From a virus, in the IMG/VR virus record IMGVR_UViG_3300033148_003903, positions 1-48,066 of that record: 48,066 bases of DNA; one strand, 5' to 3'. Positions within the stretch are counted from its first letter, which is position 1. Each line of letters starts with the position of its first letter. Of this stretch, positions 247 to 48,066 are shown piece after piece. The notes below the pieces were generated by a model. That model had not been told where the DNA came from, searched no databases, and was given only the letters and a program-made list of their open reading frames with translations. The translations under genes and the position numbers were made by a program.

Positions 247-290
247 CGGTATCGCATCTTACAAATACTTTCACAATCTCGGCATTTTGT

Positions 291-322
291 TTTAGACAGC
301 ACCGGGGCAATGTGTTACTTTG
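291..322 (+). promoter_or_regulatory. Early plus-strand promoter P1 (phage motif)
   Basis: A TAGACA -35-like element and TACTTT -10-like element, 17 bases apart, sit in an extended -10 context (TGTTACTTTG). The 16 bases at 312-327 recur, reverse-complemented, at 47115-47130 with the same 17-base spacing to GAC, and a weaker copy lies at 8856-8883. It would start a transcript near base 330, whose leader contains the large hairpin at 364-423 before the first gene at 443. Sigma70-type recognition is inferred. Confidence 0.6.
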
Positions 323-363
323 TAATTATGTTTAAGAGCAATCGCATCACACTGATAAAAAAT

Positions 364-423
364 CCGTCGCCGGGGGTCTTCACACCTTCGCGGTTGCTCG
401 CCTGGCTGGGCCTTCGGCGGCGG
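364..423 (+). terminator. Long leader hairpin with A- and U-run flanks (attenuator)
   Basis: Bases 364-372 (ccgtcgccg) pair with 415-423, and pairing continues inward (373-379 with 408-414, including G-U pairs) for about 16 pairs. The stem is flanked by an A-run on the left and TTTTT at 424-428 on the right, so it can work as an intrinsic terminator in either direction. It lies between promoter P1 and the ribosome site of the first gene, which suggests attenuation or antitermination control. The 3' arm belongs to a 19-base repeat found again at 773-791. Confidence 0.6.
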
Positions 424-424
424 T
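406..424 (+). repeat. 19-bp leader repeat, copy 1
   Basis: The sequence ctgggccttcggcggcggt is found exactly at 406-424 and 773-791. Its last part (cggcggcggtact) recurs at 1108-1120. All three copies lie just before a U-rich stretch and the ribosome site of the next early gene. Confidence 0.85.
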
Positions 425-442
425 TTTTACTGAGGTGATATA

Positions 443-760
443 ATGAAAACAATATCAGTTGAAGATTTCACAAAACAAGCTATTGAATTGTATGGCGAGA
501 AACGGAGAAACTGGAAATTCAAATGCCCTCGATGTGGAACGGTTCAAAGTGGGCAAGATTTCCTTGATGCGGACATTAAACCTGATGTCGCGGAGGGCTT
601 TATCGGTTTTTCTTGCATCGGCCGAGTCGTGAACGGCAAAGGTTGTGACTGGACGCTGGGTGGATTGTTCCTATTACATAAACTGGAAATAGTCGATGAT
701 GCAGGAAAAAAACATCCACATTTTGAATTGGCTCAACCTGAAAGTGCTACGATAAAGTAA
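443..760 (+). CDS. VVA0879-like zinc-binding phage protein
   Basis: This 105-residue protein has CPRCG near residue 28, a second pair of cysteines around residues 58-68 and the block GCDWTLGGLF, followed by HPHFELA. This combination is what I recall for the VVA0879 family of phage and mobile-element proteins, whose function is unknown; the cysteines suggest a zinc ribbon. The start follows a perfect GAGGTGATATA ribosome-site module. It is the first gene after early promoter P1, which suits a host-takeover or early accessory role, but that is inference. Confidence 0.75.
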   Translation: MKTISVEDFTKQAIELYGEKRRNWKFKCPRCGTVQSGQDFLDADIKPDVAEGFIGFSCIGRVVNGKGCDWTLGGLFLLHKLEIVDDAGKKHPHFELAQPESATIK

Positions 761-772
761 CTCAAGGACGGC

Positions 773-791
773 CTGGGCCTTCGGCGGCGGT
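773..791 (+). repeat. 19-bp leader repeat, copy 2
   Basis: Exact copy of 406-424, here followed by acttttgaaaggag and the start of the next gene. Unlike copy 1 it lacks the long 5' pairing arm, so any structure must be smaller. Confidence 0.85.
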
Positions 792-815
792 ACTTTTGAA
801 AGGAGAATGAGTAGA

Positions 816-1103: not shown

Positions 1104-1107
1104 CCCA

Positions 1108-1120
1108 CGGCGGCGGTACT
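1108..1120 (+). repeat. Partial third copy of leader repeat
   Basis: cggcggcggtact matches the 3' end of the repeat at 406-424 and 773-791 and the bases after the second copy. It is followed by tattGAGGTGATATA and the start codon at 1136. Confidence 0.7.
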
Positions 1121-1135
1121 TATTGAGGTGATATA

Positions 1136-1558
1136 ATGTGCATGGGAACACAACTAAGCAAAGCAGAGCTAAAAAAGTATATCGAGGCCCGGACAAAAGA
1201 CGGTGCAATCCTCGTGTGGAAAGTGGTTCAGGAATGCAATGGCCATTACGTAGGGCCAATAGAAAACACAGTCTATGGCGATTATGTTCGGCAACCCGGT
1301 CGTGGGGGGTCGTCATATACAGCCGTTCACGCTTTTCGTAATCGGGCATCTGCTGTAAGGTGGGTAATCGGCGACGAGATAGTAGTCCAATGCCGAATCA
1401 AGCCTGAGTGGATTAGAGCCATTGGTGGGGAGTTGTTCGGCTTTCGTAAGGGTCAGTTAGCCACAATCACGGCAAGGTTTATGGTAATGCCGGAGTATCC
1501 CAAAAAAACAGTGAGCCTGGAACGGTTCCGTAAAATCTGCAAAGAGAGTAACATATAA
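1136..1558 (+). CDS. Hypothetical early protein
   Basis: The 140-residue protein is not one I recognise. It has a central stretch HAFRNRASAVRWVIGDE and then QCRIKPEWIRAIGG, resembling small beta-rich proteins with a surface-exposed basic helix. No signal peptide or membrane segment is present. The start at 1136 is fixed by the GAGGTGATATA module; an ATG four bases later is out of frame. It sits alone between two leader elements, so it is probably a separately controlled early gene. Confidence 0.65.
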   Translation: MCMGTQLSKAELKKYIEARTKDGAILVWKVVQECNGHYVGPIENTVYGDYVRQPGRGGSSYTAVHAFRNRASAVRWVIGDEIVVQCRIKPEWIRAIGGELFGFRKGQLATITARFMVMPEYPKKTVSLERFRKICKESNI

Positions 1559-1585
1559 CAGATAAATAACTCACGGATGGCCTGT

Positions 1586-1607
1586 GCCCCAGGGACGGGG
1601 CTCTTTT
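1586..1607 (+). terminator. Intrinsic terminator or attenuator before 1619
   Basis: GCCCC (1586-1590), loop agggac, GGGGC (1597-1601), then TCTTTT. It is directly followed by GAGGTGATATAATG, so the U-run nearly touches the ribosome site of the next gene. This fits an attenuator better than an end-of-operon terminator. Confidence 0.7.
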
Positions 1608-1618
1608 GAGGTGATATA

Positions 1619-1786
1619 ATGGATTACTTTGCATTGGCAAAACGACAGATAGAGCAGCACGTCAAAGCTATGGGCTACGCCCAGCCCAAGCCGAGCAAGG
1701 GCGACGTTCTCGCCGAGGCCATTGACAACGAACCTGTGCCGCCAAAGCTATTAAAGGATACCGAAGATGAGACAGAGCCGAGGTAA
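1619..1786 (+). CDS. Small hypothetical protein, 55 residues
   Basis: Starts at an ATG behind GAGGTGATATA and reads MDYFALAKRQIEQHV, a basic helix, then a proline-rich acidic tail ending TEDETEPR. Its end overlaps the next gene, whose ATG is at 1767, which indicates translational coupling. There is no recognised domain; it resembles small early phage proteins with a single helix. Confidence 0.65.
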   Translation: MDYFALAKRQIEQHVKAMGYAQPKPSKGDVLAEAIDNEPVPPKLLKDTEDETEPR

Positions 1787-4627: not shown

Positions 4628-5158
4628 ATGGCAACGATTAAGCAGACTGAATTACAGCATTCGGATATATGGACCGGTCGTTATCGCGGTATTACATTCA
4701 AAATCAAGCGATGGCGATGGAGTGCTGAGAGTAAGGATAATTGGGCCTACTACCTTTACGTGAATGAGCAACAATTCCCGAAAAGTGAGCGTGATGCGTA
4801 TATCATATCGCCCACAAAAGACACGAAAGGCCGCTTGCGATATGATTATATGAATTGCGGATGGAACAATATAGATGCACACGGTGGCTGGACATTTTAC
4901 GAGAGGTCCGGCGGCTATCTCGATACGCCGTGTGGTATAAAAATCGGCTGCGACTACGGACATTGCTTTGATGAAGGATGCCGTTATGATGAAAAGGAGA
5001 TACTTGTTGAAGTCCAGCGATCTATCGATCAACTACACAATGCAGTAACCGGCTTCATGGTATGGAGTGAAATGGACGGCAATTACCGAACGGAAGCGGA
5101 GACCGAAACCTTCAATGCGGAATATCGAAAAAAGCGAAATCGGTCAAACAATAAATAA
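4628..5158 (+). CDS. Conserved phage hypothetical protein
   Basis: The 176-residue product has GWTFYERSGGYLDTPCG and KIGCDYGHCFDEGCRYD, a pattern I have seen in short phage proteins of unknown function. The cysteine and histidine cluster could bind a metal. The C-terminal 30 residues are highly charged. The start follows CTGGAG. It ends the recombination operon and is followed by the cloverleaf-rich intergenic region. Confidence 0.65.
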   Translation: MATIKQTELQHSDIWTGRYRGITFKIKRWRWSAESKDNWAYYLYVNEQQFPKSERDAYIISPTKDTKGRLRYDYMNCGWNNIDAHGGWTFYERSGGYLDTPCGIKIGCDYGHCFDEGCRYDEKEILVEVQRSIDQLHNAVTGFMVWSEMDGNYRTEAETETFNAEYRKKRNRSNNK

Positions 5159-5161
5159 CAT

Positions 5162-5250
5162 AAGGCGGGCGGCTGGCCGAACGGATTGCGCTGCGGTAAT
5201 GCCGGACCTGTCGTATAGGCCGCGAAGGATCGCCCCGCCTTGCTCTTTTT
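5162..5250 (+). ncRNA. Structured RNA leader element A
   Basis: AAGGCGGG (5162-5169) pairs with CCCGCCTT (5234-5241), closing an 80-base fold with inner hairpins such as 5222-5224 with 5231-5233. It ends in GCTCTTTTT (5242-5250), so it can terminate, and the ribosome site of the 37-residue gene follows at once. It shares 18 bases (5231-5248) with element B. It looks like a tRNA-type fold closed by a 7-8 bp acceptor-like stem, but the arms are irregular. Confidence 0.5.
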
Positions 5251-5266
5251 AAGGAAAGGATAAGCA

Positions 5267-5380
5267 ATGGCTAAAAAAGCAGTACCGAAGCACAACGGTT
5301 CCGGCAGAGGAACAAGAGCGAATCAAGGCAGGGGAGGCTGTAAGACAACCCGCACGACGGGGCGGGGGCGGAAAAAGTAG
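5267..5380 (+). CDS. Small basic glycine-rich protein, 37 residues
   Basis: ATG 5267 follows AAGGAAAGG and reads MAKKAVPKHNGSG, then GTRANQGRGGC and a GRGRKK end. The product is strongly positive, rich in Gly, Lys and Arg, with one cysteine. Similar short phage proteins with a GRGGC block exist, but I know of no function. An RNA-binding role is plausible because it sits between two structured RNA elements. Confidence 0.6.
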   Translation: MAKKAVPKHNGSGRGTRANQGRGGCKTTRTTGRGRKK

Positions 5381-5384
5381 AGAA

Positions 5385-5452
5385 CGGGGCGGCTACGGTT
5401 AGGTGGCGTACGACACGCAGGATCGTCCCCTGCCCGCCCCGCCTTGCTCTTT
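5385..5452 (+). ncRNA. Structured RNA element B, tRNA-like without anticodon arm
   Basis: CGGGGCGG (5385-5392) pairs with CCGCCCCG (5434-5441). Directly inside the 3' strand is a 5-bp stem with a 7-base loop (5417-5421 with 5429-5433), positioned like a T-arm on an acceptor. ACG at 5395-5397 can pair with CGT at 5407-5409 around a GG-containing loop, like a D-arm. There is no anticodon arm. It ends GCTCTTT, sharing 18 bases (5435-5452) with element A. Confidence 0.45.
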
Positions 5453-5502
5453 GAAATATTCGAGCATTCGCAAAACACTACGATAAAAGCGAAATAGCCT
5501 TT

Positions 5503-5600
5503 GGCGGCTCGTTGCCGCGTGGATTGCTCGATATATTAGGCGGCGCTGGGAATGGATTTGCGTGACCAGCGGACATGGATGTCCTTAGTCGCCGTTTTTT
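5503..5600 (+). ncRNA. Four-way-junction RNA element C with terminator
   Basis: A 7-bp closing stem (5503-5509 with 5587-5593) encloses three contiguous hairpins: 5514-5518 with 5540-5544, 5545-5549 with 5566-5570, and 5571-5575 with 5580-5584. A T6 run (5595-5600) follows the closing stem, so the fold can terminate transcription. The ribosome site of the next gene follows within ten bases. It is cloverleaf-shaped but has no standard tRNA conserved bases. Confidence 0.5.
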
Positions 5601-5616
5601 GAGAATGGAGTAAAAC

Positions 5617-5820
5617 ATGGCTAAACCTGTTCGCTACAAAGAAATATATATCTCCGTAATAGGGCCTCGGAAACCACCCGGCATACCGGTAAGGCAGCCA
5701 CAAGTGCATTTTTACGGCAAGACGTACACAGGCTCAGAGTTCCTGGTTCGCGTCGCACAGAATCCATCGGTCGAAGGGGTTGCACTTATATTCTCAGCGT
5801 TAAAAGAGACTTACGTCTAA
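5617..5820 (+). CDS. Hypothetical protein, 67 residues
   Basis: Starts MAKPVRYKEIYISVIG behind AATGGAG. It has alternating hydrophobic residues suggesting a small beta fold, with a proline-rich turn (GPRKPPGIPVRQP). It lies directly downstream of the terminator-bearing RNA element C, so its expression probably depends on read-through. No recognised domain. Confidence 0.6.
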   Translation: MAKPVRYKEIYISVIGPRKPPGIPVRQPQVHFYGKTYTGSEFLVRVAQNPSVEGVALIFSALKETYV

Positions 5821-7951: not shown

Positions 7952-8281
7952 TTATTCTGTGGCCTCGGCGATAGCGGCTTTGAGCAGTTTAATTTGCAAT
8001 TCAATAGCAATAACCCACAGCTTTGCCTCGGTACTGTCGAATGTCTTGATTGATTTTAGTAGTTCCGTGAGCATTATCACTTCTTTCTTGCACGCGGCCA
8101 GCAGCTTCGGGGCTGCGGCGATGAGCTTGGCGTTGGCCTCAATAGAGTCTTTGGCTCCATCGGCATAGATGACAGCGATTAGTGTTCCATGCCCATTTTT
8201 GCCCCAGACAGCAGTTTTGCCGTTAAAAAGATTTGGGTCTGTTTGAATACCCCAAGGCCCCGGTGTGTGTTCAGTTTTCAT
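7952..8281 (-). CDS. HTPGPW-motif phage protein
   Basis: The 109-residue product starts MKTEHTPGPWGIQTD and has NAKLIAAAPKLLAACK, a signature of a very common phage family of unknown function. The start follows TTTTGAGGTGAAAAC, a variant of the ribosome-site module used by the plus-strand early genes. It is the second gene of a two-gene minus-strand unit transcribed from the promoter near 8860. Confidence 0.85.
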   Translation of the reverse strand: MKTEHTPGPWGIQTDPNLFNGKTAVWGKNGHGTLIAVIYADGAKDSIEANAKLIAAAPKLLAACKKEVIMLTELLKSIKTFDSTEAKLWVIAIELQIKLLKAAIAEATE

Positions 8282-8315: not shown

Positions 8316-8351
8316 GCCCCGGGCGGAGTCGAACCGCGAGCCGGGCGGGGC
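8316..8351 (-). other. tRNA T-arm and acceptor mimic
   Basis: On the minus strand, GCCCCG (8351-8346) pairs with CGGGGC (8321-8316), and inside is GCGG-TTCGACT-CCGC (8337-8323). TTCGACT is a perfect T-loop sequence. There is no D-arm, anticodon arm or CCA, so this is not a tRNA gene. It may be a tRNA-like minihelix, a piece of a tRNA 3' end, or an old attachment site. It lies in the leader between the two minus-strand genes. Confidence 0.45.
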
Positions 8352-8358
8352 TGTAAAG

Positions 8359-8733
8359 TCACACTTTCTTATTCTTAGGTTGAGCATCGAGAATTTCTTG
8401 GGTGAGTTTGTCGAGGTTGTATTCCTGTTGTTCAGGGCCGCTGTGATGTTTGCGTCCGACGATTTCCCAATCCTTGATGATGTAAACGCCGTTGTCGCCG
8501 TTATCGCAGTCAAGGTGGTTGATGGTATCAATGCCTAGACTACCTCCACCTCCCAAATAGTTGCCGATTACTTGGCAGAGACGAGCCCAGCCGTAACAAT
8601 CAGATTCTGGTGTTCGATGTCCCAGTTTCTTACAGGCAGCAAGAAAGGCTTCGACGCTATCGCGTCCGCCGTTCCAGTGAAGGTAAACTCCGATTCTTTC
8701 TTCATTGGTTGTAATTACAGCACGATTTCCCAT
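8359..8733 (-). CDS. MGNRAV family phage protein
   Basis: The 124-residue product starts MGNRAVITTNEE and contains YLHWNGGRDSVEAFLAA, LGIDTINHLDCDNGDNG and YIIKDWEIVGR. This is a common phage and mobile-element family without known function. It starts behind TTTGAGGTGATACT, again the shared module, and is preceded by a strong hairpin leader. It is the first gene of the minus-strand unit. Confidence 0.85.
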   Translation of the reverse strand: MGNRAVITTNEERIGVYLHWNGGRDSVEAFLAACKKLGHRTPESDCYGWARLCQVIGNYLGGGGSLGIDTINHLDCDNGDNGVYIIKDWEIVGRKHHSGPEQQEYNLDKLTQEILDAQPKNKKV

Positions 8734-8750
8734 AGTATCACCTCAAATAA

Positions 8751-8799
8751 AGACCCAGCGACGGACTGAGCTTTGGCAAGAGTGCCCGCCGCCAGGTCT
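8751..8799 (-). terminator. Leader hairpin with 14-bp stem
   Basis: On the minus strand, AGACCTGGCGGCGG (8799-8786) pairs with CCGTCGCTGGGTCT (8764-8751): 14 consecutive pairs, three of them G-U. TTTATTT follows, and then GAGGTGATACTATG. The layout is the same as in the plus-strand leaders at 364-442 and 1586-1619, supporting a shared attenuation device. Confidence 0.55.
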
Positions 8800-8855: not shown

Positions 8856-8883
8856 CAAAGTAAAGAAAATAATTGCCAGAATC
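8856..8883 (-). promoter_or_regulatory. Promoter P2 for minus-strand unit
   Basis: TAGATT, 17 bases, TACTTT in a TTACTTTGCA context. It shares the TTACTTTG core and the spacing with the promoters at 291-322 and 47120-47149, but its -35 element is weaker. It lies about 57 bases before the leader hairpin of the 8733 gene. Confidence 0.45.
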
Positions 8884-9001
8884 TATGTTTCGGAAAAGAT
8901 AATTGACGGGCTCGATGTAAGCTGTGGCTATAACAGTAGTTACGCAACGGCAATGCAAGAGGAAATTCACAAATAAATTATTCGCTGAGGTGATTTTATA
9001 T

Positions 9002-9030
9002 TTGACAGCCTGAGTTTCAAGCGTTATTCT
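9002..9030 (+). promoter_or_regulatory. Strong sigma70-type promoter P3
   Basis: TTGACA (9002-9007), a 17-base spacer and TATTCT (9025-9030). This is the best consensus promoter in the window. Transcription would begin near 9037 and run through the minigene and structured RNA to the terminator at 9364-9408. Read-through would reach the terminase operon. Confidence 0.75.
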
Positions 9031-9073
9031 GGCGTACTGATAGTTAGCTGAAGCAAACTAAAGAGGTATTATA

Positions 9074-9082
9074 ATGCGTTAA
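9074..9082 (+). CDS. Two-codon minigene (Met-Arg)
   Basis: ATG CGT TAA with AAGAGG seven bases upstream. The context GAGGTATTATAATG closely copies the GAGGTGATATAATG start module of the early genes, so ribosomes should load here. It could be a bar-like minigene of the phage lambda type or a leader that affects folding of the RNA behind it. It may also be the stump of a deleted gene. Confidence 0.4.
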   Translation: MR

Positions 9083-9363
9083 ATACTATTGTCGGGCCTG
9101 CGTGGTTCGGCATCGGCGAAACACGCTTTTCGCCGAACACTACTGGGGGCCGTGTTATCGGTCCTGCGGCGAAAATACGACGTTCCAAGTGGTTTAACAG
9201 CCCAAAAGTGAACTTACAAGCTGCGGTGTCTTGGCAACAAGCCCCCCAGTGCCAAAAACAATAGGGCTAAGTTGTGTAACTTTCGACGGTAACACAACTT
9301 AACCCTTCCTTACAATTGAAGATTATGTGTAGAACACAAGAAACACCAGTTATAATCAGGCGA

Positions 9364-9408
9364 CAGCAATTCCGATTTGGACAATCAATTGCTGCCGTCT
9401 GTTTTTTT
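9364..9408 (+). terminator. Intrinsic terminator with pairing loop
   Basis: CAGCAATT (9364-9371) pairs with AATTGCTG (9387-9394), followed by seven Ts at 9402-9408. The loop sequence ATTTGGAC (9375-9382) is complementary to GTCCAAAT at 9411-9418, just after the U-run, so an alternative pairing is possible in read-through RNA. Confidence 0.75.
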
Positions 9409-10139: not shown

Positions 10140-10319
10140 ATGGAAAGCGAAGAAAAGCCAAAACGATTCAAAATCAGCTATGCAATAGGTTTTGGTCTTT
10201 CAGAATCATTCGAGCAAGAAATTGAGGATCGGATGATAGAGTTGGGCTATATGCCGATCGCTCGGCGTATAGATATTATGACTGATGTGCGCGACTTATG
10301 CTTTGAACTAAAGGACTGA
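10140..10319 (+). CDS. Hypothetical protein, 59 residues
   Basis: ATG 10140 opens a frame reading MESEEKPKRFKISYAIG, then an acidic helix and RRIDIMTDVRDL. The ribosome site is weak (TTAGGAT). The 65 bases before it carry only a small TAGGG/CCCTA hairpin. The protein resembles a small ribbon-helix-helix regulator in size and layout, but this is only an impression. Confidence 0.5.
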   Translation: MESEEKPKRFKISYAIGFGLSESFEQEIEDRMIELGYMPIARRIDIMTDVRDLCFELKD

Positions 10320-14655: not shown

Positions 14656-14762
14656 AACCCCAAAAGACGGGCACGGCCGGGTAGCTCCCGGTTAGATGCC
14701 GGAAACCATCGAGCCTGACCGGGGGCCGCAGGGTAACACCTGCGGTCTTTTTCTTTTGGGTT
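14656..14762 (+). promoter_or_regulatory. Switch-like attenuator before the portal operon
   Basis: AACCCCAAAAGA (14656-14667) pairs with TCTTTTGGGTT (14752-14762) with one bulge. Inside, CCGGG (14677-14681) can pair with CCCGG (14687-14691), but CCCGGT (14687-14692) can instead pair with ACCGGG (14718-14723). A terminator hairpin CCGCAGG/CCTGCGG (14726-14745) with TCTTTTTC follows. The exclusive pairings plus terminator suggest conformational control. Confidence 0.5.
14726..14752 (+). terminator. Intrinsic terminator
   Basis: CCGCAGG, loop gtaaca, CCTGCGG, then TCTTTTT. Part of the larger fold at 14656-14762. Confidence 0.75.
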
Positions 14763-22689: not shown

Positions 22690-22725
22690 TAATACTGGGG
22701 TCGGGTAATTCGGCTCGGCCCCAGC
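22690..22725 (+). other. Intergenic hairpin
   Basis: CTGGGG and CCCCAG bracket tcgggtaattcggctcgg just before CTTTGAAAGGAC and the GTG at 22741. It has the same hairpin, short T stretch and SD layout as the early leaders, but a weaker U-run. Confidence 0.4.
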
Positions 22726-45615: not shown

Positions 45616-45633
45616 GTATTACCTTTGTTCTTA

Positions 45634-45653
45634 CTCCTTTGGTGGGGTTAGGG
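45634..45653 (-). repeat. 20-bp junction repeat, copy 1
   Basis: ctcctttggtggggttaggg, identical to 46289-46308. On the minus strand it supplies CCACCAAAGGAG, a strong SD for the next gene. Confidence 0.85.
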
Positions 45654-45668
45654 CTTGCTCAAGCCATA

Positions 45669-46280
45669 TTAGTCAAAATCTCTACACTTGATTTTTGTGA
45701 TAATACGCTCACCTGCACGACTTTTGAGTTCTACGGCTGGGCGCAAAACAATTCCTTCGGCACGAAATTTTCCCCAGTGAGAGTCAAAACCATCTTGAAC
45801 CATATCGACAGCAGTTTTTAGTGTTCCGTGTCCTATCGTTGGCACAATGTCTATGCCAAGAACCAGTGCTACATCCCTAACGGTATCACGCTTTAGCCAC
45901 CACTCGCCAACGAGAACATCAAATAGGACGAAATCCACGCCGCCCTTTTGGATTTTCGCACTGTAACCTTCGCCGTAAAGCGTTAGTGAATCCGTTTCCG
46001 GATGAATTGCAGCATCCATTTTATCTAAAGGAAACAGTTGTTCGAGCCGTTCAATCAATCGTGCGGGTATGTTTGCATTGTCCGTGCGCCCACCAAATTT
46101 GCGATATTCACCACGTTGCCATTCGACTCGAATATTCGTGCCGTCCACTTTTTCCGTGAATTCCCATTCGTTCCCGGCAAGATAGCCTATTTCGGGGGTA
46201 GCGAATACCAGAGGCATAATCTTGCCCTTATTCGTCATGTCTCGCTTGAATATCGTTTGGATTTTCGGGTATTTTCTCAT
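45669..46280 (-). CDS. RNA ligase (Rnl2-like nucleotidyltransferase)
   Basis: The 203-residue product has the ligase motif I FTEKVDGTNIRVEW (catalytic Lys44), then LYGEGYSAKIQKGG, EGIVLRP and ITKIKCRDFD, as in T4 Rnl2-type RNA ligases. The enzyme seals 3'-OH and 5'-phosphate RNA ends. ATG 46280 is preferred to 46286 because AAAGGAG is nine bases away. No polynucleotide kinase gene is visible, so repair of nuclease-cut tRNA would need the host or another enzyme. Confidence 0.8.
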   Translation of the reverse strand: MRKYPKIQTIFKRDMTNKGKIMPLVFATPEIGYLAGNEWEFTEKVDGTNIRVEWQRGEYRKFGGRTDNANIPARLIERLEQLFPLDKMDAAIHPETDSLTLYGEGYSAKIQKGGVDFVLFDVLVGEWWLKRDTVRDVALVLGIDIVPTIGHGTLKTAVDMVQDGFDSHWGKFRAEGIVLRPAVELKSRAGERIITKIKCRDFD

Positions 46281-46288
46281 TGTCATTG

Positions 46289-46308
46289 CTCCTTTGGTGG
46301 GGTTAGGG
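46289..46308 (-). repeat. 20-bp junction repeat, copy 2
   Basis: Exact copy of 45634-45653, here carrying the stop of the 46303-46512 gene and the ribosome site for the RNA ligase. Confidence 0.85.
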
Positions 46309-47003: not shown

Positions 47004-47119
47004 AATCAATCATCCTTAAAAGAGACCTTGCGGGTATGAGTGCAGCATCGAAAGGAATGATGTGCCCCGCAAGGCTCTTGAAAACAAATCGAGATCATCA
47101 ATACTACACTCATAAATTA

Positions 47120-47149
47120 CAAAGTAACACCCCGCCCTGCACCCGTCAA
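47120..47149 (-). promoter_or_regulatory. Minus-strand early promoter P5
   Basis: TTGACG, 17 bases, TACTTT in GTGTTACTTTGTAATT context, reading leftward. Its 16-base core is identical to the plus-strand promoter P1. It would drive the 47003-43953 operon. Confidence 0.65.
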
Positions 47150-47205
47150 CAAAAATCTTTTATTTTTTTTTCACGCCGCGTTTGGATTGTGCCGATAAAG
47201 CACTT

Positions 47206-47702: not shown

Positions 47703-48066
47703 TCTGGGACAAGCCGACACCGCAATTGGCCTTTTTTGTGTAGAAGTAAAACACGGCAATGAGTGAGTTTGGTAATATTGAGAATCTCAACCAAAGGAAA
47801 ACCGTAAATATTACGCCACTGAGGTTTAGGCCAACGGAGAATGCTCTTGTGAACTTGGCTACGGGTACTTTTATGAACTTGGCTGCGGTTACTTTTATGG
47901 ATATGGCTATGACAAGACTGGCACAACAATTGAAGGTTGTCAATATTATGGTTATCTTTAGTCCCGTCGATATGATGAACTACGCGCCCCTTGTTTGGAC
48001 AAAGTTGGCATTCGCCATTGGCTTCTGCTATTACAATTAGACGTGCTTTCTTCAAAATGTGATGAT
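47696..48066 (-). CDS. HNH endonuclease, main part (continues from base 130)
   Basis: An HNH homing-type nuclease with CQLC, KGRVVHHIDGTKD, NIDNLQLLCQSCHSH (treble-clef zinc and HNH active site). After the core comes HKSNRSQV, HKSTRSQV, HKS: an 8-residue tandem repeat. Through the terminal repeat it joins the part at 1-130, so the full protein is about 128 residues. It is a probable mobile intruder. Confidence 0.85.
   Translation of the reverse strand, partial: HHILKKARLIVIAEANGECQLCPNKGRVVHHIDGTKDNHNIDNLQLLCQSCHSHIHKSNRSQVHKSTRSQVHKSILRWPKPQWRNIYGFPLVEILNITKLTHCRVLLLHKKGQLRCRLVPDY
47851..47898 (+). repeat. 24-bp tandem repeat in the HNH gene
   Basis: Two near-identical 24-base units (47851-47874, 47875-47898), with the beginning of a third. 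On the minus strand they encode the repeated HKSxRSQV. Confidence 0.8.
47953..48066. repeat. Right copy of 114-bp direct terminal repeat
   Basis: Identical to 1-114. See the left copy. Confidence 0.95.

Follow-up and report, generated by a model that had tools for sequence, protein, structure and literature searches.

GC-rich spacers with U-tracts in the early operon of an uncharacterised phage as probable terminator/attenuator-type leaders of ribosome-binding sites

Our analysis points toward a role of three GC-rich spacers, A, B and C, in the early operon of an uncharacterised phage as terminator/attenuator-type leader or boundary elements that feed ribosome-binding sites, an account that we hold with moderate confidence. 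In each spacer, a GC-rich stem is followed by a U-rich tract, which leads directly into the Shine-Dalgarno (SD) region of the next gene or, in the case of B, into C. Most likely, transcription would be partly terminated or attenuated at these points between genes, and the U-tract and SD would then serve the translation start of the following gene. Furthermore, A and B would frame a 37-codon gene as terminator-type cassette boundaries, and the 18 bases that they share may be the scar or the site of a cassette gain, presumably by recombination. A previous, sequence-only reading of this DNA had described the three spacers as tandem cloverleaves ending in U-runs and had proposed a tRNA-like family of regulatory terminators or decoys for tRNA enzymes; its observation is partly confirmed and its interpretation partly supported by the data below. 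If our model is right, it describes an early-operon layout in which spacers join cassette boundary, possible attenuation and ribosome entry, and the phage would provide a counterpart to the mycobacteriophages with their unexplained SAS/ESAS modules. The idea of tRNA-like RNAs would have carried more weight had it held, but it is largely removed.

Setting and folds of the three spacers

The window, i.e., the whole stretch of DNA analysed, is a 48-kb phage record (48,066 nt; virus record IMGVR_UViG_3300033148_003903). Its ends carry direct repeats (1-114 and 47953-48066) that are identical over 114 bases, and therefore, the record is probably a complete or near-complete phage genome. The three spacers lie on the plus strand in an early operon, behind the genes for RecT and exonuclease VIII. 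A is located in a true intergenic gap (5159-5266), which is followed by the gene for a 37-aa basic protein (MAKKAVPKHNGSGRGTRANQGRGGCKTTRTTGRGRKK; 5267-5380, plus strand) with an SD; B and C share the next gap (5381-5616), and a 67-aa gene with an SD (5617-5820, plus strand) lies downstream of C. Relatives of the 67-aa gene were looked for and none was found, the proteins of the neighbouring genes have no close relatives in IMG/VR or among phages, and the phage and plasmid collections contained no nucleotide relatives of the A-C region.

The stems of A, B and C can all be drawn, and U-runs end all three elements, as first described. Element A (5159-5254, plus strand) is a GC-rich spacer with an 8-bp closing stem (5162-5169/5234-5241) and a U5 tract, and it directly precedes the SD of the 37-codon gene. 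Its closing stem has a p of 0.94 when folded alone and of 0.26 in a 250-nt context, and its stability is at shuffle level (z 0.06, -0.0 and 0.19 in three shuffle tests). Element B (5385-5444, plus strand) consists of an acceptor-like stem (5385-5392/5434-5441) and an adjoining T-arm-like hairpin with a 5-bp stem and a 7-base loop (GCAGG-ATCGTCC-CCTGC, 5417-5433); this part of its original description stands, but the D-arm-like hairpin that had also been assigned to it does not (p ~0.01). B is only slightly more stable than shuffles (z -1.25 and -0.68), its cloverleaf accounts for ~0.28 of the ensemble (closing stem plus T arm, p ~0.28), and a long hairpin of nearly equal stability competes with it. 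A and B have loops of 40-65 nt, a size unusual for an intrinsic terminator in being long. A coding role for B was rejected after inspection of its reading frames, none of which fits and has a start codon.

The exact 18-base direct repeat (CGCCCCGCCTTGCTCTTT) that had been noticed in A and B is present at the 3′ end of A (5231-5248, plus strand) and at the 3′ end of B (5435-5452, plus strand), and its chance occurrence within 450 bases is very unlikely. However, the 18-mer sits in different pairing registers in the two elements and therefore does not represent one common structure. Outside of it, the similarity of A and B is at shuffle level (p 0.2); B and C are not more alike (p 0.26), and the likeness of A and C is weak (p 0.01). 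A, B and C therefore do not have the common fold and sequence of one structured RNA family. A tRNA-like family finds no support either, with low tRNA-model scores for A and C (1.5 and 2.7 bits). A match of the 18-mer in contig L002 was dismissed as chance, being inside a coding frame and on the other strand.

The 37-aa protein has a homologue in L385 (5126-5230; 69% identity over 35 aa), a related phage whose terminase is 54% identical, and this conservation indicates that the gene is real. In L385, the gene lies upstream of the portal gene with tightly packed neighbours, and no A- or B-like elements were detected around it; hence, the presence of A and B is not bound to that of the gene. Judged from these two genomes, A and B with their 18-base repeat appear to mark the borders of a mobile cassette that was gained here.

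Of the three elements, only C is clearly structured by its predicted fold. The closing stem originally assigned to it (5503-5509/5587-5593) can be drawn, and the element has a z of -1.8 to -1.9 within the limits first chosen, but the p of this stem drops from 0.63 to 0.01 once 35 more upstream bases are included. Refolded over 5456-5603, with ~40 upstream bases added, C reached a z of -3.49, and none of 400 shuffles matched its stability; a z of -3.5 was reached by only 0.3% of the background windows. The better fold has two consecutive domains instead of one cloverleaf. The 5′ domain (5460-5530, plus strand; z -1.98 for 5456-5530) is a long stem closed by CGAGCA/TGCTCG with an inner GCGGC-tcgtt-GCCGC hairpin. 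The 3′ domain (5539-5600, plus strand; z -3.41 for 5536-5603) is a terminator-like three-way junction (GGCGGC/GTCGCC) with the arms GCTGG/CCAGC and GGACA/TGTCC (p 0.94-1.0), followed by U6, and in our model this junction with its U6 would act in the manner of a terminator. The segments GGCGGC, GCCGC, GGCGGC and GTCGCC of C can pair as 1-2/3-4 or as 1-4/2-3. Such alternative pairings are what an attenuator would need, and switching with the originally drawn pairing would be possible in principle. Three cloverleaf folds are thus not borne out, with A at z ~0, the B cloverleaf at p ~0.28 and C in two domains. The terminator function proposed earlier is better supported than the tRNA likeness, since it agrees with the junction of C with its U6 and with a layout that is found again before other genes; the shuffle-level stability of A and B speaks against it.

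Recurrence of the leader layout in the genome

A layout of GC-rich stem, U-tract, SD and start recurs in further spacers of the genome. At the beginning of the plus-strand operon, behind a promoter-like repeat (287-327), module M1 (359-445, plus strand; z -2.73) is a leader with a long stem, U5 and then SD and start (TGAGGTGATATAATG). M2 (761-806, plus strand) shares a stretch of 19 bases (CTGGGCCTTCGGCGGCGGT) with M1 and has a U-tract and an SD; M3 (1104-1138, plus strand) reads CGGCGGCGGTACTTATTGAGGTGATATAATG, and M4 (1559-1621, plus strand) has a GCCCC-AGGGAC-GGGGC hairpin followed by TCTTTT and TTGAGGTGATATAATG. On the minus strand, E (8316-8351), upstream of a gene starting at 8281, has a stem of 6 bp that encloses a canonical T-arm sequence (GCGG-TTCGACT-CCGC, 8323-8337), with 8.3 bits and an E-value of 2.6 in a tRNA model. 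F (8751-8799, minus strand; z -2.79) is a 16-bp hairpin, which is followed, ahead of a gene starting at 8733, by a U-rich tract together with TTGAGGTGATACTATG (8731-8746), and G (47020-47079, minus strand; z -3.63; CTCTTTTAAGGATG) is the leader hairpin of the minus-strand operon, behind the second promoter-like copy. D (14659-14761, plus strand; z -3.51) is a structured spacer, and its sequence includes a terminator of textbook type (CCGCAGG-GTAACA-CCTGCGG-TCTTTTT, 14726-14752). Classical terminator hairpins are found in D and M4 and another one in H (22695-22724, plus strand), a 12-bp terminator-type hairpin in the late region followed by CTTTGAAAGGA. An assignment of D to BjrC68 was rejected, since the full model length was matched but with 22.8 bits against an Rfam threshold of 39. 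Spacer D (14659-14758) also holds a tRNA D-arm-like string, TAGCTCCCGGTTAGATGCCGG.

Just before the SD, at least four T in six bases are present in all ten leaders examined (M1-M4, A and C-G) versus 21% of 33 tightly packed starts, which argues for the leader function; the corresponding p of 1e-5 is optimistic because the leader set was partly assembled by hand and part of it was found by looking for U-runs. The starts at 10140 and 45615 have an upstream gap but no U-tract. The start sequence TTGAGGTGATATAATG occurs in 5 copies (≤3 mismatches; three on the plus and two on the minus strand) versus 0.25 expected, and it is absent at A, B and C. This recurrence is consistent with leader modules, as are the terminator hairpins of D and M4 and the stabilities relative to shuffles of M1 (-2.7), F (-2.8), G (-3.6), D (-3.5) and C (-3.5). 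Furthermore, the same layout of hairpin, U-tract and TTGAGGTGATATTATG, with a different stem sequence, was found in phage contig L284 (terminase related, 34% identity). This was the one module match in related phages; the closest relatives, L384 and L385, had no matching module within the stretches compared, and searching with the pattern of the start sequence yielded mostly isolated matches at chance level. Against the leader function, the stability of A and B does not exceed that of shuffles. A consensus terminator scan found none on the plus strand at A-C. Homologues of the A-C spacers were absent from the collections searched, where searches guided by terminase and exonuclease gave relatives but none that has such spacers, and therefore, there is no sign of selection on the folds.

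A second start-associated repeat (CCCTAACCCCACCAAAGGAG) is located before two minus-strand genes (45625-45653 and 46280-46308, minus strand). Between 13564 and 14412, five consecutive small overlapping genes end in tails that resemble each other (...KDANEVKE/K) and come from GAGGTGAAGGAATGA-like sequence; within each tail lie the SD and start of the following gene (ATGA overlap). Here, a start module that has the GAGGTGA core of the intergenic starts is duplicated within coding sequence.

tRNA likeness and other explanations

The possibility that B, and perhaps E (8316-8351, minus strand), is a tRNA remnant or mimic with acceptor stem and T-arm but no anticodon arm, which would have decayed or would serve RNase P, RNase Z or the CCA-adding enzyme as a processing site or decoy, appears improbable to us. 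It was judged with a tRNA covariance model built from 11 tRNAs that ARAGORN had found in phage and prophage loci; a held-out tRNA-Leu, unused in training, scored 48.5 bits. B is the best match of the whole genome to this model (13.6 bits, with an E of 0.053 over the genome and of 5.7e-4 over the region) and has the common T-stem GCAGG/CCTGC, and E bears the canonical GCGGTTCGACTCCGC T-arm. However, the match of B covers the acceptor and T-arm only, its T-loop, ATCGTCC, lacks the T54/A58 pair that true T-loops have, and its cloverleaf and D-arm are poorly populated, as given above. The low scores of A and C place them apart from tRNAs. ARAGORN found no tRNA gene, the Rfam tRNA model had no match anywhere in the 48-kb window, and the Rfam comparison that the previous reading had suggested gave no match over 5100-5650 up to an E of 10. 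GC-rich DNA alone also scores close to B: 185 kb of it contained four matches above B (33.7, 27.8, 20.8 and 15.1 bits) and several at 12 bits. The highest of these are probably true tRNAs; 90 kb of GC-matched DNA contained no match above the 13.6 bits of B. With tRNAs and tRNA-like structures, B shares an acceptor-like stem (7-8 bp) stacked on an arm of 5 bp whose loop has seven bases, but it has no anticodon arm, supported D-arm, canonical T-loop or encoded CCA; A and C have no resemblance. As far as the model goes, the resemblance would be faint, limited to B and that of half a tRNA. It is very improbable that, as functional tRNA minihelix mimics, B and E punctuate the polycistronic early mRNAs and are cut by host RNase P/RNase Z, which would free each gene with its own U-rich leader.

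The main rival is a translational or mRNA-protective role, which we regard as possible but clearly less likely than the terminator/attenuator-type leader. Here, the functional part would be the start-associated U-tract with the SD, recruiting ribosomal protein S1 and the 30S subunit, and the stems would insulate the start or protect the 5′ side of the mRNA after cleavage, as do the RNase III sites in the early mRNA of T7, with no termination involved. Indeed, the conserved portion among the modules is the U-tract, SD and start, the stems vary in sequence and strength, and A has no extra stability. The U-tracts may act just as enhancers of translation of the S1 type. However, the hairpins of D and H are textbook terminators, and the strong 3′ domain of C stops exactly at U6. 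That GC-rich spacers merely allow cloverleaf drawings, with an RNA without function, would agree with A (z ~0), B (z ~-1) and the 31 multibranched stems before T-runs that can be drawn on the plus strand alone; we nevertheless think it unlikely, given the z of -3.5 for C, the exactness of the 18-base repeat and the recurrence of the leader layout at other genes.

Described systems with similar features

Intrinsic terminators are found between early phage genes, as in the lambdoid tL/tR type and the moron terminators. The terminator/attenuator-type leaders proposed here have in common with them a GC-rich stem and then a U-tract at gene or cassette boundaries, which is clear in D, M4 and H. In contrast, the loops of A, B and C are long and multibranched, and the U-tract merges into the next SD.

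The closest described system, by analogy, is the set of start-associated sequences (SAS) and extended SAS (ESAS) of the cluster K mycobacteriophages. There, a short sequence is repeated at the translation starts of some non-structural genes, and in about half of the cases it is preceded by an inverted repeat (PMC3203893). The phage analysed here likewise has one sequence, or a close variant of it, at five of its translation starts. However, this sequence is TTGAGGTGATATAATG here and GGGATAGGAGCCC in cluster K, the stems vary between modules, and A, B and C are without the repeated start sequence.

For M1 and G, but not for A-C, the put RNAs of HK022 offer a lead by analogy. These are structured RNAs of ~70 nt with two stem-loops downstream of early promoters (PMC9378689), and M1 and G may be comparable to them in structure and position; A, B and C are kilobases away from the promoter-like repeats. 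The two promoter-like copies (287-327, plus strand, and 47115-47155, minus strand) are divergent, share GTGTTACTTTGTAATT and head both early operons, each with a strong leader hairpin (M1 or G) behind it, a position that recalls put or nut sites. Between the minus- and plus-strand transcription units, ~500 bases (8860-9400) are without an obvious gene and contain GC-rich hairpins on the minus strand.
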